This document shows positions 27,338 to 40,184 of a stretch of DNA of 64,000 bases, in pieces. Under the pieces are notes generated by a model. That model was not told where the DNA came from and made no database searches. It worked only from the letters and a program-made list of their open reading frames with translations. The stretch's first letter is position 1, and each line of letters opens with the position of its first letter. Origin of the DNA: an uncultured Pelagibacteraceae bacterium (GTDB lineage: Bacteria; Pseudomonadota; Alphaproteobacteria; Pelagibacterales; Pelagibacteraceae); contig CACNWV010000002.1 of the NCBI GenBank assembly GCA_902624195.1, positions 1-64,000 of the forward strand, given 5' to 3'. The translations under genes and the position numbers were made by a program.

Positions 27338-28186
27338 TCATGAAAATAATTTTATCAAAATACATCCACTTAATATCATTACGGCTGAAATAAAGGCCAA
27401 ATAGCCGCCTTTCTCTTTTAATATAAATAAACCATAAAGCGAGGCAAATAGAATACTCATTTCTCTCAAGGCAGCAACTACTGCTACTTTTCCGATGGTA
27501 TACCCATAAACGGCGGGCAGGTAAGAGTAAATATTGAAAAAAGCTGCAATAGATATATTTTTAAAATTTTTTAAAAAATAGTCTAAATGAATTTCTTTTT
27601 TTTTAAATATAAATGGTGCAATTATATTAAAAATAAAACCATCAAGAGAAAAATAATATAAAAGATAAATTAATGCGTTAGAAGCTCTAGCGCCTTTAGC
27701 GTCGGTGATTGTATAAGCTATTATTATTAAAGCAACAATTAAACTATAAAATAAGCCTTTTACATTTATTTTTTTAAAATTCCCTTCTGAAAATACTAAT
27801 AATAAAATTCCTAAAGAGATTATAATGACTGCAATTTGATTATTTAATTGTAAGTTTTCCCCGAATATAAAAGGTGTAATTAGTAAAAGAATAAATGAAG
27901 GTAGACCTCTCGCAATTGGATAACCAAATGATAATCCAGAATAATCATATACTTTACATAGAAATATTTTATAAAAAACATGAATTATTATAGTGGCGAA
28001 AAAAAAAAGCCAAGCTGCCTTCGGCAATGGTTCAAAAAAAAATAATAGGGGAAATAAAAATAAACTACTTAGCAAAGTAAACGCTCTCATAAATTTTATT
28101 TTATCATCTGATTTTTTTAAGAGCGCATTCCATATCACATGTCCTACTGCGCCAGACAAGATTGCTAAAAAAAGGAAATTATCCAA
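27338..28186 (-). CDS. EamA/DMT-family membrane transporter, last gene of phosphonate operon
   Basis: This 282-residue protein has about ten membrane segments in two repeated halves, the drug/metabolite transporter fold. The first half holds GHVIWNALLKKSDDK and YDYSGLSFGYPIARGLPSF. The second ends with GYTIGKVAVVAALREMSILFASLYGLFILKE, a typical EamA repeat. It starts 1 base after the iron alcohol dehydrogenase stop, so it belongs to the phosphonate operon. The substrate cannot be told from sequence; by position it could move a pathway intermediate or product such as acetate, but that is only a guess. Confidence 0.85.
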   Translation of the reverse strand: MDNFLFLAILSGAVGHVIWNALLKKSDDKIKFMRAFTLLSSLFLFPLLFFFEPLPKAAWLFFFATIIIHVFYKIFLCKVYDYSGLSFGYPIARGLPSFILLLITPFIFGENLQLNNQIAVIIISLGILLLVFSEGNFKKINVKGLFYSLIVALIIIAYTITDAKGARASNALIYLLYYFSLDGFIFNIIAPFIFKKKEIHLDYFLKNFKNISIAAFFNIYSYLPAVYGYTIGKVAVVAALREMSILFASLYGLFILKEKGGYLAFISAVMILSGCILIKLFS

Positions 28187-28187
28187 A

Positions 28188-29303
28188 CTAATATCCTAAC
28201 GACTCTTGTGCCTCTAAAACTTTTTTATAGCTACCAATAAAATTTTTTCCTCTTTCCCCTCCAAAAGCATCCTTAACTATTAAATCCCAATCATTAGCAT
28301 TTCCAATATAATCTTTAAAATTAGTTGAGACTTCTAGTTCCTTAAAAAAATTTTTTAACTGATTTGGTGCATTTTCAAAATCAGGAAAAAGAGATTTAAA
28401 ATTATTATCACATGTCTTATCCAGACCTTGCACTGATTTTAAAATTATTGGTAAAGTAAAAGAACAAGCTATTCCATGCGGAACTTTGTATTTTAAAGTT
28501 ATAGGATATGAAATCGAATGAGATATTGCTGTTTTAGTATTCGAAAAAGCTAATCCTGCAGACATTGATGCTTTCATTATTTCTTCTCTAAGTTTAATAT
28601 TTTTCAAATCTTTTACTAGTTGAGGAAGGTTCTTCAAAATTATATTTATTGAATTTCTTGCGTGTATATTCGAAACTGGATTAGAATTTATATTCCATAT
28701 ACTTTCAAAAGAGTGTGACATTGCATCTAATGAAGTTTCTATAGTAATTTTCTTAGGTAAAGATAAAGTAAGTTCACTATCAAATATTGATAGTTTAGAA
28801 AAGAGAGATTGATGTATTAAAGAATGCTTTCTTTGATTTTCTTCGTCCCAAATAGTTGCCCAGCAAGTTAGCTCACTTCCAGTTCCAGCAGTAGTAGGAA
28901 TTGAAATAAGGTCAATATCTGTAGGTGGAAAAGAACTTACTTTTTTTTCAACGTATTCTATAGTTTTATCAAAATTTCCTTTTCCCAAGACTATAAATTT
29001 TGCAGTATCAATTACAGATCCACCTCCTAACGCAATTGCAAATTTAATCTTGCTACATTTTAAGCTGAATAACTCGCTAATTTCTCTCAAATTTTTATAG
29101 TCAGGATTAGGTAAAATGTTATTAATAATTAACTTTGGCTCTCCCAAAGCATTGACTATTTGATTTGAGTATTCTTGAAATACTTTATCGGAGTAAGTAA
29201 ATATACAATAATCACCACCACCAATAACTTCTTTTAACTTTTTTTTGTTTTTAAGAATGCCGGTTTCAAAAATAATTTTTGAGGGATTGTGATAGTTAAA
29301 CAT
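28188..29303 (-). CDS. Iron-containing alcohol dehydrogenase, candidate 2-hydroxyethylphosphonate dehydrogenase
   Basis: This is a 371-residue group III (iron-type) alcohol dehydrogenase. The nucleotide-binding loop GGGSVIDTAK starts at residue 93, and PTTAGTGSE at 136-144 is the second cofactor motif. The four expected metal ligands are Asp193, His197, His262 and His276. It sits between phnY and a transporter gene with 0-1 base spacing. Family members related to PhpC/FomC interconvert phosphonoacetaldehyde and 2-hydroxyethylphosphonate in natural product pathways. Beside PhnY and PhnA, and with no PhnW in the operon, I infer oxidation of 2-hydroxyethylphosphonate to phosphonoacetaldehyde. 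Another alcohol substrate, or aldehyde reduction as an overflow step, remains possible. Confidence 0.8.
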   Translation of the reverse strand: MFNYHNPSKIIFETGILKNKKKLKEVIGGGDYCIFTYSDKVFQEYSNQIVNALGEPKLIINNILPNPDYKNLREISELFSLKCSKIKFAIALGGGSVIDTAKFIVLGKGNFDKTIEYVEKKVSSFPPTDIDLISIPTTAGTGSELTCWATIWDEENQRKHSLIHQSLFSKLSIFDSELTLSLPKKITIETSLDAMSHSFESIWNINSNPVSNIHARNSINIILKNLPQLVKDLKNIKLREEIMKASMSAGLAFSNTKTAISHSISYPITLKYKVPHGIACSFTLPIILKSVQGLDKTCDNNFKSLFPDFENAPNQLKNFFKELEVSTNFKDYIGNANDWDLIVKDAFGGERGKNFIGSYKKVLEAQESLGY

Positions 29304-30746
29304 TTAATTCCATTTCATATTCACATTCTTTAATCTTGCATAACCTTTCATTTCATCAAAACACTCTTCGACACCAATACCACTTAATTTCCACCCTCCA
29401 TAAGGGGCACCAGAATATCTGCCTGCGGTATTTACCCAAACATAACCTACTTCCGCGTCTTCAGAAGTCTTCATGGCGTTTGATAATGAGTTTGTAACAA
29501 TCATTGTCGTAAGTCCATATTGAGTTGAATTTGCTATTTTGACCATTTCATCATAGTCATCCCAGTCAATAACTGAGATAACTGGTCCAAAAATTTCTTC
29601 TTTAGCTATTTTCATATCTGGTTTTACATCGCAAAAAATTGTTGGGTTTATAAAAAAACCATTTTTAAGATCACCAGATTTATTTTGATCACCTCCCAAT
29701 AATAATTTAGCACCTTCGTCTTTACCAGATTGAATATATTTCAAAACTCCATCAAATTGCTTTTTTGAGACTATTGGGCCAATTTCATTAGTTTCAATCC
29801 AAGGAAGTCCTATAGGTATTTTTTTTGCTTTTTCTACTAGAGATTTAAGAAACTTCTCTTTAATCTTCTTGTTAACTAAAACACGAGAAGTTGAGCTACA
29901 AGATTGTCCTTGTCTGCTTAAATTCATTCCTTTTATGGCTAGACCAGCAGCAAAATCAGGATCTGCATCATCAAAAACTATAATTGGATTTTTTCCTCCC
30001 AATTCTAACGAAATATTTTTTAAAAGTGGTGCTGCGGATTTTGCTATTGCAATACCAGTATTAACAGATCCGATTACAGCTATTCTTTTTATATCCTGGT
30101 GTTCTACCAAAAATTTTCCATTGTCTGGTCCACCAGTTACTACATTTATTAATCCTTTTGGAAAAATATCACCCAATAATTCACAAAATCTAAGCGATGA
30201 AATTGGTGCTTGTTCTGAATTTTTTATGATAAGTGAATTCCCCATTAATAATGGTGCAGCTATTTTTTCAACGCAAAATCTAAATGGATGATTAAAAGGA
30301 TTTATTTTTAGCACAACTCCATAAGGTTGGTAACGCGTGAAATTCAAATGATTTTTTTCCATAGAAAAAGTTTCACCTTTAACTTCTCTTACTAAACCAC
30401 AAAAATATCTAATATTATTAACAGTTTCTTTTACATCTTTTCTCATACCAGTAAGGGCATTGCCAGAGTCATAAGAATCAATTAAGGCAAATTCTTCCTC
30501 TCTCTCTAAGATTTTTTTTGATAATTCCTCCAGACATTTTACTCTTTCAATTAATGAGGTTTTGGACCAAATAGCCTGGGCTTTCTTAGCTGACTCTACT
30601 GCTAGTTCTAACTCCTTTTTATCGGATATAGGAACATCAGATAGTTTTTCTCCGTTTGAGGGGTTAAAAACTTCGTATGTTTTATTTGAATTAAACCACT
30701 GACCATTTACGTATGTGCCCTTAACCTTAAAGATGTTCTTATCCAT
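29304..30746 (-). CDS. phnY: Phosphonoacetaldehyde dehydrogenase (aldehyde dehydrogenase superfamily)
   Basis: PhnY oxidises phosphonoacetaldehyde to phosphonoacetate with NAD. The 480-residue protein is a complete aldehyde dehydrogenase with KINPFNHPF (residues 147-155), general base Glu248 in LELGGKNP and catalytic Cys283 in GQSCSSTSR. Arg102, His153, Arg288 and Arg443 fall where, as I recall, Sinorhizobium PhnY uses three arginines and a histidine to hold the phosphonate; this should be confirmed by alignment. Its start overlaps the phnA stop by 8 bases, which ties the two steps together. The family name rests on this context as well as on sequence. Confidence 0.85.
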   Translation of the reverse strand: MDKNIFKVKGTYVNGQWFNSNKTYEVFNPSNGEKLSDVPISDKKELELAVESAKKAQAIWSKTSLIERVKCLEELSKKILEREEEFALIDSYDSGNALTGMRKDVKETVNNIRYFCGLVREVKGETFSMEKNHLNFTRYQPYGVVLKINPFNHPFRFCVEKIAAPLLMGNSLIIKNSEQAPISSLRFCELLGDIFPKGLINVVTGGPDNGKFLVEHQDIKRIAVIGSVNTGIAIAKSAAPLLKNISLELGGKNPIIVFDDADPDFAAGLAIKGMNLSRQGQSCSSTSRVLVNKKIKEKFLKSLVEKAKKIPIGLPWIETNEIGPIVSKKQFDGVLKYIQSGKDEGAKLLLGGDQNKSGDLKNGFFINPTIFCDVKPDMKIAKEEIFGPVISVIDWDDYDEMVKIANSTQYGLTTMIVTNSLSNAMKTSEDAEVGYVWVNTAGRYSGAPYGGWKLSGIGVEECFDEMKGYARLKNVNMKWN

Positions 30747-31980
30747 AATTTAAGGCTAAATCAAATATGTCGTAGTTTTTAAGAACTCCTTTAGATTTAT
30801 AGCTATCATCTATTTTTCTCGAGATAAATATTGGAATATCTGTTTCCCCAAGTCCACCATGTGTTCTTAGTGGTTCTTTTAATTTTGTAAGATCGTGATC
30901 GCTTTCTTTTTTTCCAATTGCAAATTTTTCATTAGATGTAACCACTATATCGCCTATTCTATCCTGTGGTTGTTTTAGTTTTTTTATACTTTCCTCTTTA
31001 TTAATGACCATTTCTACGCCATTTATTGTTTTAATATAATTCATCACTTCATTAATTTTTGATTTATCTTTTACGTAAATAGTTACAAATGATCCAAAAG
31101 ATCCATGATGAACAACATAAGGATCTGTAATTGTACAAACAACATTACACTCATCTTTTCCAAATTTTTTATCAACTTCGTCTTGCATATATATTAAATT
31201 TAAAGATCCATCTTTATTAGTTTTTCCTTTCATACCATGGTCTGCAGTGAAAGAGATTTCACATCCAAGGTCGTAAAGTTTTGACAAATATCCATCAACC
31301 ATGTGATAAAAATCATTTGCCATTTTATCTCCTGGTGCTGCTTTATGTTGTATAAAGTCCGTTGTTGATAGATACATCAAATCTATCTTTTCCTTCTTAA
31401 TAATTTCTACTGCTGCTGCAAAAATAAATTCAGATAAATCCGAACTGTAAACCTCTGGTAAAGGTTTTTTTACTAAATCTAAAACATTTTCTATTCTATT
31501 ATCTTTAAGATTAGCTTTATCTGCTTTTTCAGACGAAAAACAAATCGCTTTACTTAAATTTTTTCCTAATAACTTTCTCAGCTTTTCCTTAGCAGTAATC
31601 ACGGCAACTTTTGCCCCAGCTTTTTCAAAAGCCTCAAAAATTGTTGATGCTCTCAAAAAGGTGTCATCATTCATTAAAGTTTCTTTTCCCTCTTCTGGAT
31701 TAAAAAAGAAATTTCCACAAATTCCATGTATATCGGGTGTTGTACCGGTAACAATTGACATATTGTTTACATTTGTAAAACTCGGCATTGCACATTTACC
31801 TACTTCATAAGTCGATTTGCTTATCATCGACTTCATAAAAGGCATCAAACCCATTCTTATTGCTGTATCAATATATCCTTTTGGCCCTGGCTCACTTCCA
31901 TCCAAACAAATTACTATAGCTGGTTTTGAAGGCCATTTATAAGATTTTCCGTTTACTGAGATTTTTTTGCTCGCTGACAT
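30739..31980 (-). CDS. phnA: Phosphonoacetate hydrolase
   Basis: PhnA cleaves the carbon-phosphorus bond of phosphonoacetate to give acetate and phosphate. It belongs to the alkaline phosphatase superfamily and uses two zinc ions. All expected active-site residues are visible: Asp27, nucleophile Thr69, Asp208, His212, Asp247, His248 and His374. Lys131 and Lys133 in TAKEKLRK lie where the characterised enzyme binds the phosphonate. The length of 413 residues matches. There is no signal peptide, so it acts in the cytosol on imported or internally formed phosphonoacetate. It follows the Pit gene by 2 bases and overlaps phnY. Confidence 0.93.
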   Translation of the reverse strand: MSASKKISVNGKSYKWPSKPAIVICLDGSEPGPKGYIDTAIRMGLMPFMKSMISKSTYEVGKCAMPSFTNVNNMSIVTGTTPDIHGICGNFFFNPEEGKETLMNDDTFLRASTIFEAFEKAGAKVAVITAKEKLRKLLGKNLSKAICFSSEKADKANLKDNRIENVLDLVKKPLPEVYSSDLSEFIFAAAVEIIKKEKIDLMYLSTTDFIQHKAAPGDKMANDFYHMVDGYLSKLYDLGCEISFTADHGMKGKTNKDGSLNLIYMQDEVDKKFGKDECNVVCTITDPYVVHHGSFGSFVTIYVKDKSKINEVMNYIKTINGVEMVINKEESIKKLKQPQDRIGDIVVTSNEKFAIGKKESDHDLTKLKEPLRTHGGLGETDIPIFISRKIDDSYKSKGVLKNYDIFDLALNYG

Positions 31981-31982
31981 TC

Positions 31983-32996
31983 TTAAAAATTATATATACT
32001 AGTTAATAAAAAGCTGCAACAAAAAACGCTTATCGGGATTAGTACCCAAGATAAAAGTATTTTAATTGTATGTTCAGGTTTCACTTCTCTAAATTTATTG
32101 AAAGATGCAATACCAATTATACTCGCAAAAGTAATATGTGATGCGGAAAGCGGCATTGCAAAAATTTGAAATGGTAAATATGTGTTTAAAAAACCGATAG
32201 TGTGATTGGAAGAAAAACTAAATAGTATTAATATTTGTGTAAGAAGTATTGCCAAAGCGGGTACCGGTTTAATATTTGAGATTTGTGAACCAATAGTTCT
32301 AACGATTTTTTGAGAAAAATAAAAAGCTCCTAATCCAATTAATAAAGATGTTAAAAAGTATAATTTCTTATCATCTATTGTCAAATTTAAATTTATAAAT
32401 TCTAACTCCAGAGATAAAAAAGGTGAGTAAATTCCAACTATTGCAGCGGTTAGATGTGCGCCGAGAGCAAAAGCTGCAAGGCATCCAAAAAAAATTAAAG
32501 ATAAACGAATTTGATAGTCAATTTGAAATACGTTTAATTTTAAAACTTTAAATATAAAATTAATTAGCCAACAAAAGAAAATAGAAAGTATAAAAGCGAT
32601 CAAAGGAGTGGCCAACCAAAAATAAATTAATTCTAAAAAAAGTTCATAATTAACATTCAGTTTTTCCACTATTGAGAACGCAACCAATGAGAATATAACT
32701 GATTGAGAGATTGAGCTTGGTATTTTTAGTTTTAGAGAAATGATTGTTACAATTACAACTGGGATTATGATTAAGAATATTTTTTTAAAATCAGGATAAT
32801 CAAGAATTAGATTTCCATATACTTTTGAGGGGTTTTCGGCATTTATTACCGCTCCTAAAATAATAAAAATAATAAAAAATATTATAGCTATCTTGAATTT
32901 TAACATTTTTGATCCAACGGCAGAACCAAAAACATTTGAAGCATCGTTTGCACCAATGATAATAGCTATAGTTGCTATTAATAATATATCTAACAT
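31983..32996 (-). CDS. pit: Inorganic phosphate transporter, PiT family
   Basis: This 337-residue protein has about ten membrane segments. It carries the PiT signatures near the N-terminus (IIIGANDASNVFGSAVGSKM, residues about 17-36) and in the second repeat (AFALGAHLTAAIVGIYSPF and MPLSASHITFASIIGIASF). PiT carriers move metal-phosphate with cations and work in either direction depending on gradients. It lies between a PhoU-like gene and phnA with gaps of 2 bases. Inside a phosphonate-degrading operon it is well placed to export surplus phosphate, though import is the textbook role. Confidence 0.88.
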   Translation of the reverse strand: MLDILLIATIAIIIGANDASNVFGSAVGSKMLKFKIAIIFFIIFIILGAVINAENPSKVYGNLILDYPDFKKIFLIIIPVVIVTIISLKLKIPSSISQSVIFSLVAFSIVEKLNVNYELFLELIYFWLATPLIAFILSIFFCWLINFIFKVLKLNVFQIDYQIRLSLIFFGCLAAFALGAHLTAAIVGIYSPFLSLELEFINLNLTIDDKKLYFLTSLLIGLGAFYFSQKIVRTIGSQISNIKPVPALAILLTQILILFSFSSNHTIGFLNTYLPFQIFAMPLSASHITFASIIGIASFNKFREVKPEHTIKILLSWVLIPISVFCCSFLLTSIYNF

Positions 32997-32998
32997 AA

Positions 32999-33634
32999 TT
33001 AATTTTTAGATGAGGATATAATCAGTCTGTCTGCAACGTCTTCCGAAAGATTGGCTACTTCATCCATTATCTCAACAAAGTATTTCAGATGTACTTTAGT
33101 AGCAAGACCATTTTTAGAATTTGAAAAGATAGTTTTTTTTAATTCAGTACTGACTTTGTCAGCTTTACTTTCTACTTTTGCAACCTCTAAACATTTTTTA
33201 ATAGTAATTTTTTTATCAACGAAAAAACTTCTTGAGCCTTCAATTAGTAATGAGATACATTCTGATGCATAATCACAAAGCTTAAGAAAGTTTTGATCAA
33301 GTTCTGAGTCTACTTTAGGTTTTTCTGTGTTAAAACTATGTGCATTTCCTTGTATTTGCCCTGGTATTTTATCTAAATTTTCAAGCATGCCAAGAACATC
33401 TCCTCTAATCTCTGGAATTAAGGTTTCGCTGTAAATTCTTCTCTCTACATCTCTTCTCAGGGCGTCACATTCACTTTCTAAGTTAGAAATTTGATCAGTA
33501 ACAGTTTGAACTTCCTCAAAATTATTATCAAAATATTTTTGGAGAAGAATTTTAAAAAGGTTATTAATTTTTAAAATATTATCTAAAAATAAATTGATTG
33601 AGGTCATCAATTCTTTCTCGTGACTTTTTAACAT
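32999..33634 (-). CDS. PhoU-like DUF47 (TIGR00153) phosphate transport regulator
   Basis: This is a 211-residue all-helical protein with acidic motifs EVQTVTDQISNLESECDALRRDVER and IPGQIQGNAHSF, characteristic of the DUF47/PhoU-related family that is almost always paired with PiT transporters. It probably controls the neighbouring Pit carrier by direct contact. It overlaps the second phnE by 1 base and precedes pit by 2 bases. There are no membrane segments and no DNA-binding motif. Confidence 0.85.
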   Translation of the reverse strand: MLKSHEKELMTSINLFLDNILKINNLFKILLQKYFDNNFEEVQTVTDQISNLESECDALRRDVERRIYSETLIPEIRGDVLGMLENLDKIPGQIQGNAHSFNTEKPKVDSELDQNFLKLCDYASECISLLIEGSRSFFVDKKITIKKCLEVAKVESKADKVSTELKKTIFSNSKNGLATKVHLKYFVEIMDEVANLSEDVADRLIISSSKN

Positions 33635-34431
33635 TATTGCGTTTCCTTATAAATTTTATCCCGCATGTATGCAGACAGAGCTTCAGAGAAAATTACTAAT
33701 ACAATAATCGACAATATAATTGCCGAAGTTCTAGCATATTCTAATTGAAGAACATTACGCTTTAAATACCACCCCATGCCACCTGCACCAAAAAAACCAA
33801 TAATAGTAGATGCTCTAAAACAAACATCCCATGTGTAAATTAATATTCCTGTGAATGCAGTTTTTACTTGAGGCCATACTCCGTATGCAAAAACCTGCAT
33901 TTCATTAGCACCATTTGATCTCATTGTGTCCACTAGTTTCATATCAACATTTTCTAATTCTTCTGAAAAAAGTTTACCAAAAAAACCTATACAATACATA
34001 GTTAAAGCCATTGTCCCTGCTAACATTCCAAAGCCTACGATCGTAACAAATAATATTGTCCAAATTGTTTCATGAATAGATCTTGCGAATATTATTAAAA
34101 ATTTTCCTATTGGGTATCCAATTCTTTTACTTGGTGTTAAGTTAGCAGCGGCAAGATAAGCAAGTATAGAAGCAACAATGACACCTATTATTAAACCAAG
34201 ATAGCCCATCTGAATACTATCCAATATAGATGCTAGATAACCAGGCTCAAGTGCATATGGAATATCTACAGGATAATATCTGTTAGCTATTAGTTTACCA
34301 AAATTTCCTAAAGCAGAAAAAAATCTATAGAAATCAATTCCTAAATATAAAAAACAAAGATATATTATAAAAAAGAAAAGACTTAAAAATATAAAGTTTT
34401 TTGCATTATTTCTTTTATAAATTTGCTCCAT
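33634..34431 (-). CDS. phnE: Phosphonate ABC transporter permease (second)
   Basis: This is a 265-residue inner-membrane permease with about six membrane segments. The conserved cytoplasmic EAA-type loop reads DTMRSNGANEMQVFAYGVWPQVK (residues about 168-190). FARSIHETIWTILFVTIVGFG is the PhnE-type signature just before it. It pairs with the other PhnE encoded immediately upstream (1-base gap) to form a heterodimeric channel, as in other marine phnCDEE transporters. Confidence 0.93.
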   Translation of the reverse strand: MEQIYKRNNAKNFIFLSLFFFIIYLCFLYLGIDFYRFFSALGNFGKLIANRYYPVDIPYALEPGYLASILDSIQMGYLGLIIGVIVASILAYLAAANLTPSKRIGYPIGKFLIIFARSIHETIWTILFVTIVGFGMLAGTMALTMYCIGFFGKLFSEELENVDMKLVDTMRSNGANEMQVFAYGVWPQVKTAFTGILIYTWDVCFRASTIIGFFGAGGMGWYLKRNVLQLEYARTSAIILSIIVLVIFSEALSAYMRDKIYKETQ

Positions 34432-34432
34432 T

Positions 34433-35245
34433 TTATATTATCCTCTTTCTTAAATAATGAGATAAAACTTCTCCTATTAAAATTAGTCCAACAATAAACA
34501 TTATTACTGTTGTAACACCTGGATAGTTAGACATATGCATTTGTCTAAAAAAAGCTAAACCAAGACCGCCTGCTCCTACAAGGCCCATTACTGCTGATCT
34601 ACGAATATTTATATCCCACTCAAAAATAATCGTTCCTATTACAGTTGGAAGAATTTGAGGAATAATCCCATAGTACATAACATCAAAACCAGAGCCCCCC
34701 GCTGCTCTAATCGCTTCAATCGGTTTTTTATCTGCTCCTTCTATACTTTCTGAAATAATTTTAGAAATAAATCCAACTGATCTAAATGCTAAGGCTAATA
34801 TGCCTGGTAAAGCTCCTAAGCCAACAGCTCCAACAAATATTAATGCCCAAATAATTTCATGAACTGACCTACTAATTGTCATTAGCATCCTAGCAAAACT
34901 AAAGCTAGCCATACCTAAAGGAGTAACATTTTTAGCTCCAAGCCAAGCTACTGGCAATGACATTATCAGTCCTAACATGGTGCCTAAGCACGCCATTAAG
35001 AATGTCTCAAAGGCTGGTTTGATTAAATAAGGCATAATTTTAAAATCTAAACCAACAAAATAAGATAGTTGTTTTAGAATTCCCTCACCAGAACCTATTC
35101 TATGCCAGTCAGTGTCTAGTATAATTATGAAATATACGCTTAAAAATATTACTAATATTGCAATTGTATAAAAAATTATCTTTTTTAAAATTTTTGAAGA
35201 GTTTTGTTTAGTATAATCTTCAACACCTAAATTATAACCACTCAT
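34433..35245 (-). CDS. phnE: Phosphonate ABC transporter permease (first)
   Basis: This 270-residue permease has a long cytoplasmic N-terminus of about 25 residues and about six membrane segments. It shares SRSVHEIIWALIFVGAVGLGALPGILAL and an EAA loop (AIRAAGGSGFDVMYYGIIPQ) with the following permease but is clearly diverged from it. The two lie in tandem after phnC. Together with PhnC and PhnD they form a complete binding-protein-dependent importer. Confidence 0.93.
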   Translation of the reverse strand: MSGYNLGVEDYTKQNSSKILKKIIFYTIAILVIFLSVYFIIILDTDWHRIGSGEGILKQLSYFVGLDFKIMPYLIKPAFETFLMACLGTMLGLIMSLPVAWLGAKNVTPLGMASFSFARMLMTISRSVHEIIWALIFVGAVGLGALPGILALAFRSVGFISKIISESIEGADKKPIEAIRAAGGSGFDVMYYGIIPQILPTVIGTIIFEWDINIRRSAVMGLVGAGGLGLAFFRQMHMSNYPGVTTVIMFIVGLILIGEVLSHYLRKRII

Positions 35246-35250
35246 AGTTT

Positions 35251-36009
35251 TTATAAAACCTCAAATTTGTATAAATCTTGAAGAACTTCGTTTGTAAGTT
35301 TAATAGTTACATCATCAAATTTTTTTTTACCATCCTGTAAACCTAGGATCCTATTTGCAAATTGTTTTGCTAAATCGATATTATGTATATTGCACAATAC
35401 AGGTATTTTTAACTCATCAGCTATTTTTTTTATCAATTCCATCATTTCAACAGCAATTTTAGGATCTAAACTAGATGTGGGTTCATCTACTAGCAGCATT
35501 TCAGGTTCTTGCATTAAAGCTCTAGCAATACCTACTCTTTGTCTTTGGCCACCGCTTAGTTGATCCACACGTTTATTTGCAAAGTCTTTCAATCCAACTT
35601 TTTCAATTAATTCGATAGCCCGACTTACATCTTTTCTACTGAACATTCTGAATAAACTTGAAAAAGTATTCATATAACCTAGCCTTCCAGTTAAAACATT
35701 GTCTATAACTGACATTCGATCTATTAAATTAAATTCTTGAAAAATCATCCCAATTCGTCTCCGAACATTTCTTAATTTTTGACCTTTTAAACTAAGTAAT
35801 TTTTGACCTTTAAAATCAACTTCTCCACTATTTGGATTTGCTAGCTTATTGATGCATCTTATTAGAGACGACTTCCCTGCACCACTTGGGCCTATGATTG
35901 CATAAAAATCATTATTAGCAACTGCAAATGATATATCAAATAATACCTGGGGCCCACCTCTACTATACGTTAAATTTAAATTTTCTACTTTTAAAACTGT
36001 TTCACTCAT
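35251..36009 (-). CDS. phnC: Phosphonate ABC transporter ATP-binding protein
   Basis: PhnC drives phosphonate import. Walker A GPSGAGKSSLIRC (residues about 40-52), Q-loop IFQEFNLIDRMSV, signature LSGGQRQRVGIARAL and Walker B MLLVDEPTSSLD are intact over 252 residues. It is separated from phnD by a strong stem-loop (36030-36060), which may set a higher level of the binding protein than of the rest. Confidence 0.94.
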   Translation of the reverse strand: MSETVLKVENLNLTYSRGGPQVLFDISFAVANNDFYAIIGPSGAGKSSLIRCINKLANPNSGEVDFKGQKLLSLKGQKLRNVRRRIGMIFQEFNLIDRMSVIDNVLTGRLGYMNTFSSLFRMFSRKDVSRAIELIEKVGLKDFANKRVDQLSGGQRQRVGIARALMQEPEMLLVDEPTSSLDPKIAVEMMELIKKIADELKIPVLCNIHNIDLAKQFANRILGLQDGKKKFDDVTIKLTNEVLQDLYKFEVL

Positions 36010-36075: not shown

Positions 36076-36981
36076 TTACTTTTTATTTTTTTTCTTAAAC
36101 TCAGCTTTAGCTTTCGCCAAAGTTCTGATTACATCATAATCTTTGTCCGACATTGGAACAAATTTAGATGATTTTAAGTTAGCTAAGAACTTTTGAGCTT
36201 TCGCGTCATTTCCAAGATTTAGAAATGTTGAAGCGACTGCTTTTTTTATTGGTTCACACAATTTACCACTATATACAAATGGATCTTGTGGTACTGACGG
36301 TGATCTCCATAAAATGTTAAAGTCTTCTAACTTGACTTGACCTTTAGCAACAACGTTATCAAATCTATGACTAGCTACAAAGCCAGCATCAATTTTACCA
36401 CTATGTACTGCTAAAGTAGTTAAATCGTGACCACCAGTATAAACTATTCTTTTCCAGAATTTATCAGCATCAGTATTCATGCTTGGTGCCCAAACTACTC
36501 TTGGAATTAAATCTCCTGATGTACTTCCAGGATCAGCATGTCCAACGGTCGCGCCTTTAAGAGATTTTTGATCAGTAAACTTAGATCCTTTTTTTGTAAT
36601 CAACACTGATTGATATCCAGGTCCTTCATTTTGCATGTAACCTTTCTTTTTTGCGTAAGTTGCAAACACTGTGATTGATGGATCTTCTTTCTTCGCAGTA
36701 ATGTATCCATAGGGACCTAGAACAGCGACATCAACAAATCCTCCAATTAAAGCTTCTGCCACTGATGCGTAAGAAGTAGGCATGTAAAATTCTATACTTT
36801 TGCCAGTGTTCTTCTTTAATTTCTCAAGAAGTGGTCTGTATAGATCAAGTTCGAATGATGACTCTTCAGTTGGTATAATTGAAAATCTTAATTGCTTGGG
36901 ATCCTTACATTTTGAGTATGCAAAGTTTGTTCCCAACAAAAAGATAGTAAAAAATACCAATATTCTTTTTAATGTAAGCAT
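36076..36981 (-). CDS. phnD: Phosphonate ABC transporter substrate-binding protein
   Basis: PhnD is the periplasmic receptor of the importer. The first 23 residues form a signal peptide (LVFFTIFLLGTNFAYS, cleavage before Lys24). The mature protein has the PhnD fold markers DLYRPLLEKLKKNTGK, DVAVLGPYGYI, the anion-binding loop DPGSTSGDLIP and TGGHD. The length of 301 residues is normal. It is the promoter-proximal gene of the operon, translated from a GGGAG element just before the ATG. Specificity among phosphonates cannot be read from sequence. Confidence 0.92.
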   Translation of the reverse strand: MLTLKRILVFFTIFLLGTNFAYSKCKDPKQLRFSIIPTEESSFELDLYRPLLEKLKKNTGKSIEFYMPTSYASVAEALIGGFVDVAVLGPYGYITAKKEDPSITVFATYAKKKGYMQNEGPGYQSVLITKKGSKFTDQKSLKGATVGHADPGSTSGDLIPRVVWAPSMNTDADKFWKRIVYTGGHDLTTLAVHSGKIDAGFVASHRFDNVVAKGQVKLEDFNILWRSPSVPQDPFVYSGKLCEPIKKAVASTFLNLGNDAKAQKFLANLKSSKFVPMSDKDYDVIRTLAKAKAEFKKKNKK

Positions 36982-37090: not shown

Positions 37091-37624
37091 ATGATTTTAA
37101 GTTGTAATTCCTGTGGTAAAAAATTTGTTGTCCCAGATAACGCAATTACTGCCTCTGGCCGTATGGTTCAATGTGGCTCTTGTGGAAATAAATGGAAACA
37201 ATTTCCCCTAAAAGAAATAGCTGAAAAAAAAGCTACTTCAAATCCTAAACCTAAAAAGATCCAAACGCCAAAAACAACAAATAAAATTAATAAGATTTCA
37301 AAACCTAAAAAAATTAAAAGCACCGTTGTTAAAAAACAGAGAGAGATTAGCTTATATTCACCAGAATACCTTGCAAAAAAACACGGCATTAAAATTAATC
37401 AACCCAAACAGCTTAAAATAGATAAAAAAGATAAAGAAGTTTACTTTGGTTTTTATAATTCATTAATTTTATTCATTTTTTTGATTATCTCATTATCTAG
37501 AATTTTATATTTTGCTCAAGATTTAATAATCTTTTATTTTCCGATTTCTGAATTCTATTTAAATTATTTTTTTGAAAGTATTCGCAATATTTTCGAAATT
37601 TGGAAAAATTTAATTAGTTACTAG
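37091..37624 (+). CDS. MJ0042-type zinc-ribbon membrane protein
   Basis: This 177-residue protein begins with a zinc ribbon whose ligands are Cys5, Cys8, Cys28 and Cys31 (CNSCGKKF and VQCGSCGNKW), the MJ0042 finger family common in alphaproteobacteria. A lysine/proline-rich linker follows (about 45-115), then one long hydrophobic segment (about 120-150) and an aromatic C-terminus. It looks like a membrane-anchored protein with a cytosolic metal-binding head. The function is unknown. The 3' end overlaps the convergent fusion gene by 11 bases. Confidence 0.8.
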   Translation: MILSCNSCGKKFVVPDNAITASGRMVQCGSCGNKWKQFPLKEIAEKKATSNPKPKKIQTPKTTNKINKISKPKKIKSTVVKKQREISLYSPEYLAKKHGIKINQPKQLKIDKKDKEVYFGFYNSLILFIFLIISLSRILYFAQDLIIFYFPISEFYLNYFFESIRNIFEIWKNLISY

Positions 37625-40184
37625 TCTCTAAGTCTTTGATGTTAATAAAGTTTTCAGACAAATTGATGTTATCTTTTTTTATATCTTTAAAAAAATTCCA
37701 AGCTAATACCAAAATTACATTTTTCTTATTTTTGATATTTAATTTACTTTTAATAGGTATGTTAACTCCAGGTATAAATTTGTTATGCTTTAATTTGTTA
37801 TCCTCAATTATATAATCAATTTCATTGGAAATTCCGTAAAAATTGAGAGCAGTTGTTGCTTTGGCAGGAGCGCCGTATCCAATAATTAGCTTATTTTTAT
37901 TTTTTAATTTTACAATATTTTTTCTAACATTTTCTCTTATTTTATAAACTTTTTCTCCAAATTCTTTATAAGTTTTGAATTTTTTTATTCCAAACTTCTC
38001 TTCTTCCTTCAGCATTTGTTTAACGCTTTTTTCCACATTTGCCTTTTTATCTTTTTTTATATAAACTCTTAACGAACCGCCATGAGTATCAAATTTTTCT
38101 GATTTTATTATTTTTGCGTCAAACTGTTTAAAGAAATTCGACAAAGAAGTTAATGACCAGTAATTAAAATGTTCATGATAAATATTATCAAAGGTCAAAT
38201 CTTTCAAAGTATTCATAAGATATTGAACCTCAATTATTATAGTTCCTTTGTTACTTAGTAATTTAAACATGCATTCAGCCATTTCTTTCAATTTATCTGA
38301 ATGAGCAAAAACATTTGAAGCTAAGATTAAATCTGCATTTTTTTTTATTTTTTTTAAATTTTTTTTCTCTAAAAAACCGTTAAAAGTTTTTATATTATTT
38401 TTATTTGCAAGTTTTGCTAAATTTTTAGCTGGCTCTATACCTAAAATATTCTTAAATCCCAAATCTTTAAACGGTTTTAATCCTACACCATCGTTACTAC
38501 CTATATCTATTATGTAAGATTTTTTTTTGTTAAGCTTTAAATCTCGAGAATATTTTTTTGCTGCTCTCGCAAAATGATCTCTAAAAGATTTAGAAGTTGA
38601 TGAAGTATAAATATAATTTACAAACATTTTTTTTGGATTCACTGAAACGGATAACTGGCAATTATGACAATTATCACAATAATTCACTTCTAGAGGGTAC
38701 AACTCACATTTGTCACTAACTTTATTAAGTAAATTATTTGCAAGCGGCTGGTAACCTAAAGAAACAACTCTTTTCAAATTAGAGTTTCCACATATTCTGC
38801 ATTCAAATTTGTAACACTCTAAAAGTAGGTTTTTTTCTTTTTCGTCTACAAGATTATGTTTAATTGTGTGAGTGATGCCATAATTTTCATGATCTCTCTC
38901 TCCTCTAACTAAATTTAAAAAAGTTGTATCTTTAGTGAAAACCATTGAGTGAGCTACATTTGGTTTTATTATTGAGGTCTGACCTGCATTAACAACTTGA
39001 GTTATTTTTGGAGCGTCTGGATTAATGATATCCTTATAAATCTCGATAATTTGACCTTTTGTAAACAAACATTTTTGCTCTTGCTGTGGATGATAATGAT
39101 TTGCTCTTATAGTTCCTTTTTTTGAATCAATTAATCCAATCAAATTTATTGGCTCTGTTAATTCATGGTTGCTAATAGTGCCTCTAACGTCGGTGAATAG
39201 ATCTTCTCCGTCTCTAACATGCTCTAAATCATTAACTATTTTTTGTTTTGACCATTTTTGGATCATTTCTTTAATACTTTGGTCAATTTCATATAAAAAT
39301 TTAAAACCAATTTTTAAAAGTTTTTTGTTAGATAGAGAAAAACCTAAATTAGGTATTTCATCATTAGTTTCTTTTAATTCAATTTTAGGATTATATTTTT
39401 TACATATTTCGGCAACTTTTTTTACCGTTATAGTATCTTTAGTTAGATTAAATATTTCAGAATAAATTTCATCTTTTTCTTCCATAAATTTAAAACACCT
39501 TGCAACATCGATTAATGGAACTAAACTTTTTATCTGTCTTCCACCTGCAAATAGTTTTAATGTTCCATTTTGAGATGCTATCTTGGAAAAAAGATTAGGC
39601 ATTATATCAATTCGCATGGTATCCGTAGAGTATCCATAGACTGAGCCCAATCTTAAAATTACATAGTTTTTTCCCGAATTTTTGAGTTGTTTCTCATTTT
39701 CTGCTTTGGAAGATGAATAAGCTAAAATAGGTTTTGTGGTCTCCTCCTCTTTTATATCCATTTTTACATTATCTATCCCTTCGTAAACCACGTGAGTTGA
39801 GGGAAATATTATTTTACAATTATCACTTATGGCATCTAAGATATTTTGCGTTCCCTCTACTCCAACTGCTCTAATATTTTCATCTTTATCTTTTGATGAC
39901 TCACTTTTTGTTCTTGGAACTGCGGTAATTCCGGCTAAGTGATGTACTACATCTGCATCTTTAAAATACTTTTGTATTAAACCTTTATCTAGAATATCGC
40001 CATGAACAAAATTTATATTCCAATTTCTCAATTGACTTACTCTTTCAGATACAAATCTATTATCAATTACAATTATATTATGATGCCAACTTACACCTGA
40101 ATAAAGTTTACACAACTCTGTTCCGATATAACCCAAACCGCCGGTGATTATAATCTTTTTTTTCATTAGAAAATTAATTATCAT
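37614..40184 (-). CDS. Three-part sugar-modifying fusion: NAD-epimerase/dehydratase, cupin, C-methyltransferase
   Basis: This 856-residue protein joins three enzyme domains. Residues about 7-315 are an extended short-chain dehydrogenase with TGGLGYIG and the YSSSK motif (Tyr156, Lys160), as in nucleotide-sugar epimerases and dehydratases. Residues about 345-445 form a cupin with ANHYHPQQEQ and IKPNVAHSMVF. From about 460 there is a zinc-binding head (Cys462, Cys465, Cys503, Cys506), then an SAM site IDIGSNDG (559-566) and a C-terminal part with GYGAPAKATT, the layout of NDP-hexose C-methyltransferases. I infer synthesis of a branched, C-methylated sugar. Met7 (40166) may be the true start, since the Rossmann fold begins right after it. 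Confidence 0.85.
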   Translation of the reverse strand: MIINFLMKKKIIITGGLGYIGTELCKLYSGVSWHHNIIVIDNRFVSERVSQLRNWNINFVHGDILDKGLIQKYFKDADVVHHLAGITAVPRTKSESSKDKDENIRAVGVEGTQNILDAISDNCKIIFPSTHVVYEGIDNVKMDIKEEETTKPILAYSSSKAENEKQLKNSGKNYVILRLGSVYGYSTDTMRIDIMPNLFSKIASQNGTLKLFAGGRQIKSLVPLIDVARCFKFMEEKDEIYSEIFNLTKDTITVKKVAEICKKYNPKIELKETNDEIPNLGFSLSNKKLLKIGFKFLYEIDQSIKEMIQKWSKQKIVNDLEHVRDGEDLFTDVRGTISNHELTEPINLIGLIDSKKGTIRANHYHPQQEQKCLFTKGQIIEIYKDIINPDAPKITQVVNAGQTSIIKPNVAHSMVFTKDTTFLNLVRGERDHENYGITHTIKHNLVDEKEKNLLLECYKFECRICGNSNLKRVVSLGYQPLANNLLNKVSDKCELYPLEVNYCDNCHNCQLSVSVNPKKMFVNYIYTSSTSKSFRDHFARAAKKYSRDLKLNKKKSYIIDIGSNDGVGLKPFKDLGFKNILGIEPAKNLAKLANKNNIKTFNGFLEKKNLKKIKKNADLILASNVFAHSDKLKEMAECMFKLLSNKGTIIIEVQYLMNTLKDLTFDNIYHEHFNYWSLTSLSNFFKQFDAKIIKSEKFDTHGGSLRVYIKKDKKANVEKSVKQMLKEEEKFGIKKFKTYKEFGEKVYKIRENVRKNIVKLKNKNKLIIGYGAPAKATTALNFYGISNEIDYIIEDNKLKHNKFIPGVNIPIKSKLNIKNKKNVILVLAWNFFKDIKKDNINLSENFINIKDLETSN

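Follow-up and report, generated by a model that had tools for sequence, protein, structure and literature searches.

Why does a phosphonate-degrading operon of a SAR11 bacterium carry a Pit-family phosphate carrier and its PhoU-like DUF47 partner? The operon lies on the minus strand of a 64,000-nucleotide stretch of DNA (the window) from a Pelagibacteraceae (SAR11) genome (G000; 965 kb, 89% complete), in the order phnD, phnC, phnE1, phnE2, DUF47, pit, phnA, aldehyde dehydrogenase, Fe-containing alcohol dehydrogenase (Fe-ADH) and EamA (Table 1). From phnE2 to EamA, all neighboring genes are at most two bases apart or overlap slightly: PhnE2 and DUF47 overlap by one base, and two bases separate both DUF47 from Pit and Pit from PhnA. 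The ORF coordinates agree with a preliminary description of this DNA, in which the pair was placed between the importer genes and phnA at 1-2 base spacing, and both minus-strand ORFs are intact (pit, 337 aa; DUF47, 211 aa).

Table 1. The phosphonate operon of the window, listed in minus-strand gene order.
Feature	Product	Position	Strand	Profile match
phnD	periplasmic phosphonate/phosphite-type binding protein	36076..36981	-	PF12974, 188 bits
phnC	importer ATPase	35251..36009	-	TIGR02315, 307.7 bits (cut-off 266.1 passed)
phnE1	importer permease	34433..35245	-	TIGR01097, 240 bits (cut-off 216.7 passed)
phnE2	importer permease	33634..34431	-	TIGR01097, 229 bits (cut-off passed)
DUF47	DUF47/PitR-type accessory protein, PhoU-like	32999..33634	-	PF01865, 84.6 bits (cut-off 24.4)
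pit	PHO4/PiT-family carrier	31983..32996	-	PF01384, 125 bits (cut-off 33.7)
phnA	phosphonoacetate hydrolase	30739..31980	-	TIGR02335, 493 bits (equivalog cut-off 407.55 passed)
aldehyde dehydrogenase	presumed phosphonoacetaldehyde dehydrogenase, by position	29304..30746	-	PF00171, 484 bits
Fe-ADH	Fe-containing alcohol dehydrogenase	28188..29303	-	best model TIGR03405 Phn_Fe-ADH/PsrA, 365 bits (under cut-off 424)
EamA	EamA-type membrane protein of a kind found with phosphonate genes	27338..28186	-	PF00892, 39 bits

Enzymes and importer of the operon

PhnA converts phosphonoacetate to acetate and phosphate. The PhnA of the window aligns end to end with the solved PhnA 3szy (E 3e-131) and retains the CLDG, SFTN, QHK, ADHGM and HGG active-site motifs. 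The aldehyde dehydrogenase scores higher against the BADH model (427) than against the PhnY model (248.6), the latter under the equivalog cut-off of 635.65, and by this test it is not a PhnY orthologue. The Fe-ADH presumably supplies phosphonoacetaldehyde from an alcohol, for example 2-hydroxyethylphosphonate. We found no match to the transaminase PhnW in this 89% complete genome; since PhnW is absent and the Fe-ADH present, the operon probably starts from a phosphonate other than 2-AEP, and 2-hydroxyethylphosphonate would be the natural guess. The best NCBIfam match of the EamA protein is TIGR03340 phn_DUF6 (113 bits, under the cut-off of 288).

The phnD product passes the cut-off of the subfamily model TIGR01098 (190.7) and scores 216 against TIGR03431 PhnD, under its cut-off of 261. 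PhnDCE has been proposed as a phosphate/phosphite importer in picocyanobacteria (PMC10284923), and the PhnDCE of the window may be a plain phosphate/phosphite importer as well, given that the closest solved chain to its PhnD is PtxB (5o2j). More broadly, PhnDCE-type importers are one candidate for phosphate import in SAR11 genomes that lack PstC. Elsewhere in the window (37614-40184), an NAD-dependent epimerase domain and a C-methyltransferase module are fused in a single 856-aa ORF.

Distribution of the pair with phnA

Pit and PhnA occur in the same four of 237 Pelagibacterales genomes, adjacent in each, and the remaining 233 have neither protein (Fisher p = 8e-9 for 4/4 versus 0/233, a value that overstates independence since the four genomes are related). 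The one Pit-type carrier gene of such SAR11 bacteria lies, together with its DUF47 partner, in the phosphonate operon. In a conservation set of nine related loci fetched with PhnA, the order PhnE2-DUF47-Pit-PhnA is retained in L003, L007, L009 (the cultured strain HIMB114) and L010, and is partly visible at the contig ends of L004 and L008; it is also found in genomes G032 and G158. A LysR gene lies between pit and phnA in L008 (973-1857), L009 (9038-9913), L017 and L018, convergent with pit and divergent from phnA, so that pit there belongs to the importer transcription unit and not to that of phnA; no LysR gene occupies this place in the window, L003, L007 or L010. The preliminary description had treated uniqueness to a single genome as grounds for abandoning its proposal. 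The recurrence of PhnE2-DUF47-Pit-(LysR)-PhnA in other SAR11, and of the pairing in other alphaproteobacterial families, rules out a one-genome oddity: the Pit-DUF47 pair is part of the phosphonate module, and the arrangement is real and conserved.

Among SAR11 phnA clusters, those with an Fe-ADH have Pit and those with PhnW lack it. In L005, L006 and L011, PhnW comes after phnA and the accompanying aldehyde dehydrogenase, and the genomes lack Pit; across the SAR11 phnA genomes compared, PhnW exceeds its cut-off only where Pit is missing. Two further proteins were noted in these neighborhoods. In phnA clusters of SAR11 and G405, phnW is followed by a gene for a ureidoglycolate-lyase-like protein (PF04115; L005:14156-14794, L006, L011 and L021:5840-6469), and a 333-aa membrane protein with trace PHO4 similarity (12.9 bits), possibly a distant transporter, adjoins the phn operon at L007:3049-4050 in a genome that lacks PstC.

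PhnA is present in 44 of 385 Alphaproteobacteria and in 18 of 349 genomes across the phylum. We surveyed 63 PhnA loci; in 16 of them the flank on one side is under 5 kb, cut off by a contig end or by the limit of the retrieved sequence, and absence is less sure there. DUF47-Pit lies within 7 kb of PhnA in five loci: two from SAR11, and three from further alphaproteobacterial families at distances of 166 bp (L020), 2.3 kb (L032) and 6.4 kb (L021). L020 reads DUF47-Pit-PhnA-PhnY-FAD oxidoreductase-EamA; L032 reads Fe-ADH-PhnDCEE-PhnA-PhnY-DUF47-Pit, with a LysR gene; and the Pit of L021 lies near PhnW. Because the entry enzymes of these three loci differ (FAD oxidoreductase TIGR03364, PsrA Fe-ADH and PhnW, respectively), the element common to DUF47-Pit loci is PhnA, which carries out the phosphate-releasing step. 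The link to Pit is weakly stronger in Fe-ADH clusters (2/6) than in PhnW clusters (1/37; p = 0.047). Pit-DUF47 recurs beside phnA in unrelated gene orders, and the other 58 loci lack the pair. Pit near phnA is therefore an option and not a requirement, and an outlet of the Pit type is not generally needed.

A search of plasmids for the L032-type Pit gave no match. In G405, a small protein that is ArsC-like by appearance (L066:56-475) adjoins DUF47-Pit, as expected if that Pit admits arsenate.

The carrier, its partner and the direction of phosphate flow

The carrier belongs to the PHO4 family by sequence (Table 1) and by fold: its AlphaFold model (pLDDT 81) has the PiT transporter 6l85 as its sole significant solved match (E 4e-9, TMq 0.75). 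PiT proteins carry a signature with an aspartate in each of two repeats. In our alignment, the first-repeat signature of the carrier is GANDASN, with its aspartate intact, and the second is GAHLTAA, in which the conserved aspartate is missing; canonical alphaproteobacterial Pits have GSNDVAN at this position. In human PiT2, the matching second-repeat aspartate is reportedly critical, its mutation being said to abolish Na+-phosphate transport (work attributed to Bottger and Pedersen, 2005). Because this aspartate is missing, the carrier should not be taken to follow canonical phosphate-symport chemistry, and the label "bidirectional" in the preliminary description is an assumption carried over from E. 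coli-type Pit to a protein without the C-terminal signature aspartate.

GAHLTAA also occurs in L003, GSNLTAS in other SAR11, and GANNIAN in L020, L021 and L032. GANNIAN is a trait of a whole alphaproteobacterial Pit branch, nearly always with DUF47 and mostly away from phn genes, which rules out loss of the second aspartate as a feature unique to phn-linked carriers. The loss alone therefore cannot prove export; judged from the signature, it hints at altered coupling. In a tree, the SAR11 Pits fall on a very long branch and those of L020, L021 and L032 inside another, so a single common origin of all phn-linked Pits is not supported, with the proviso of long-branch warnings. The pit gene is under purifying selection (dN/dS 0.08-0.17) and has no internal stops.

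An altered second signature could also mean that the carrier moves another anion, such as phosphonoacetate, acetate, sulfate or some other pathway-linked oxyanion. One known member of the PiT family is a sulfate permease, and the only NCBIfam match of the carrier is the sulfate permease CysP, a weak one (66 bits, cut-off 400). However, the first signature is intact, related GANNIAN carriers are widespread with DUF47 and without phn genes, and the carrier has kept its DUF47 partner, a type of protein that accompanies phosphate Pits (PMC13170248). We regard a different substrate as quite improbable.

The partner is a DUF47/PitR protein by its PF01865 score and by its position two bases from Pit; it scores 75.8 against TIGR00153, under the cut-off of 104.3, and profile searches find the PhoU-like structures 3l39 and 2iiu. 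PitR is found beside PitA almost everywhere (PMC13170248), so the adjacency of DUF47 and Pit is in itself an ordinary arrangement. PitR works with its cognate transporter, strains without PitR and other PhoU-like regulators have raised cellular phosphate, and in S. aureus PitR controls PhoPR activity (PMC13170248). This last role raises the idea that DUF47-Pit transports little on balance and mainly senses internal phosphate, adjusting PhoR or the activity of the operon accordingly, and the pattern of divergence would suit it: Pit is the least conserved of the proteins compared (67% identity to HIMB114), with DUF47 (80%) and PhnC (91%) better kept. The sensor role is very unlikely, though, as Pit has retained a full carrier fold in the predicted model together with purifying selection, and sensing alone does not explain the tie to phnA.

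Characterized Pit carriers are mostly importers, which counts against an outlet and for an ordinary low-affinity phosphate importer in a general P-acquisition operon, with PhnDCEE taking phosphonate. We found no match to PstC or PNaS in the window's genome, G241 or G244, so an import role of Pit is possible there; PNaS (PF02690) was found in none of 12 Pelagibacterales genomes checked. The distribution of Pst argues against import more generally. PstC is absent from 68 of the 237 genomes, and just one of these, the window's own, has Pit; in the 149 genomes that are at least 90% complete, PstC is absent from 36, none with Pit. Three of the four Pit genomes have PstC (Fisher p = 1 for Pit versus PstC absence) and 67 Pst-less genomes lack Pit, so that Pit tracks phnA, perfectly in this set, and not the absence of Pst. 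These counts rule out Pit as a general replacement for a lost Pst, and Pit is not the general phosphate importer of Pelagibacterales.

HIMB114, which carries the phn operon with DUF47-Pit, bears on both directions of flow. Its operon adjoins a pst-phoU-phoB-like island, and between the two lie arsenate-reductase-like and aquaporin-like genes (L110:5958-14874; genes named by sequence appearance, except PstC and the response regulator, which were identified by family search), and this proximity favors import. At 100-150 nM phosphate, however, uptake of 33P-phosphate by HIMB114 met only ~1% (batch) to 30% (best chemostat) of its P demand (PMC6589437). Such low uptake speaks against import, and also against the rapid phosphate exchange by Pit in those cultures that would be expected of a freely reversible carrier. 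On balance, an ordinary importer seems to us somewhat unlikely.

Our best hypothesis, as in the preliminary description, is that Pit and DUF47 form an outlet for phosphonate-derived phosphate, to which we assign a probability of about one half. PhnDCEE would import a non-amino two-carbon phosphonate, which the Fe-ADH and the aldehyde dehydrogenase would oxidize in two steps to phosphonoacetate; PhnA would split this into acetate, serving for carbon and energy, and one phosphate. Phosphate far above the cell's need would then leave by way of the Pit-family carrier and become available to neighbors; the DUF47/PitR partner would gate the carrier or report on it. Beyond the distribution of Pit, which follows phnA and not Pst loss, an equilibrium calculation with assumed gradients is relevant to this proposal. 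With 0.1 micromolar phosphate outside, a carrier coupled to one cation (H+, or Na+ with its gradient taken as 10-fold) can sustain only ~0.2-70 micromolar in the cell, so that phosphate at millimolar levels in the cell would flow out; against this, coupling to 2 Na+, as in human PiT2, makes import feasible at an outside concentration as low as 0.1 micromolar under the same assumptions. The location of pit in the importer transcription unit of the LysR-bearing relatives (L008, L009, L017 and L018) also counts against an outlet. A stronger version, in which loss of the second aspartate weakened cation coupling and turned a PiT branch into a dedicated exporter, outward-only in phosphate-poor sea water and making SAR11 phosphonate eaters phosphate donors, we consider unlikely.

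Regulation, significance and known systems

The preliminary description had also argued that the operon need not be a phosphate-starvation system, and this is probably right. Systems of the phnA type are typically under LysR regulators and induced by their substrate (PMC10574752), and the divergent LysR gene in relatives of the window would be consistent with the same mode of control. The authors of the HIMB114 study concluded that this strain depends to a large extent on organic P even in the presence of available phosphate (PMC6589437), consistent with phosphate-insensitive phosphonate use. We found no convincing Pho box upstream of phnD, but the regions upstream of pstS, used as controls, score no better, so a scan with the E. 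coli consensus is uninformative in SAR11.

Release of phosphate during phosphonate use is already known: Stappia exports phosphate during phosphate-insensitive use of 2-AEP (PMC8316502), in a paper whose main text is without the words PitA and efflux. In the literature examined, we found no named exit gene for phosphate release by phosphonate-using marine bacteria, and what is new here is a candidate for one. If Pit is the exit, SAR11 bearing the operon would turn phosphonate into phosphate for their neighbors, and pit beside phnA would be a metagenomic marker of phosphate donors. The outlet reading also offers an explanation of an odd pattern, namely that almost no SAR11 have Pit and that those which do always have a phosphate-releasing hydrolase as well, and the cultured HIMB114 makes it directly testable.

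Four known systems invite comparison. YjbB, an enterobacterial cation/phosphate carrier that promotes phosphate export (PMC11389368), is comparable only in how it works: it belongs to a different family (PNaS, PF02690), which has no match in the window's genome. TmPiT of Thermotoga maritima (PDB 6l85) shares the fold of the carrier and its intact first signature, but the two are 17% identical in the structural alignment and TmPiT has GANDVAN in both repeats. PitA-PitR phosphate transporters consist of the same two families in the same adjacency, whereas the window's pair sits inside a phosphonate operon, is divergent in sequence and lacks the aspartate of the second signature. Finally, the PhnWAY (phnW-phnA-phnY) 2-AEP operons of marine Alphaproteobacteria share with the window PhnA, an aldehyde dehydrogenase and an associated importer, often carry a divergent LysR gene, and have phosphate-insensitive use with phosphate release on record in Stappia (PMC8316502); the window's operon differs in having no PhnW and an aldehyde dehydrogenase outside the PhnY model, and in carrying an Fe-ADH and DUF47-Pit instead.
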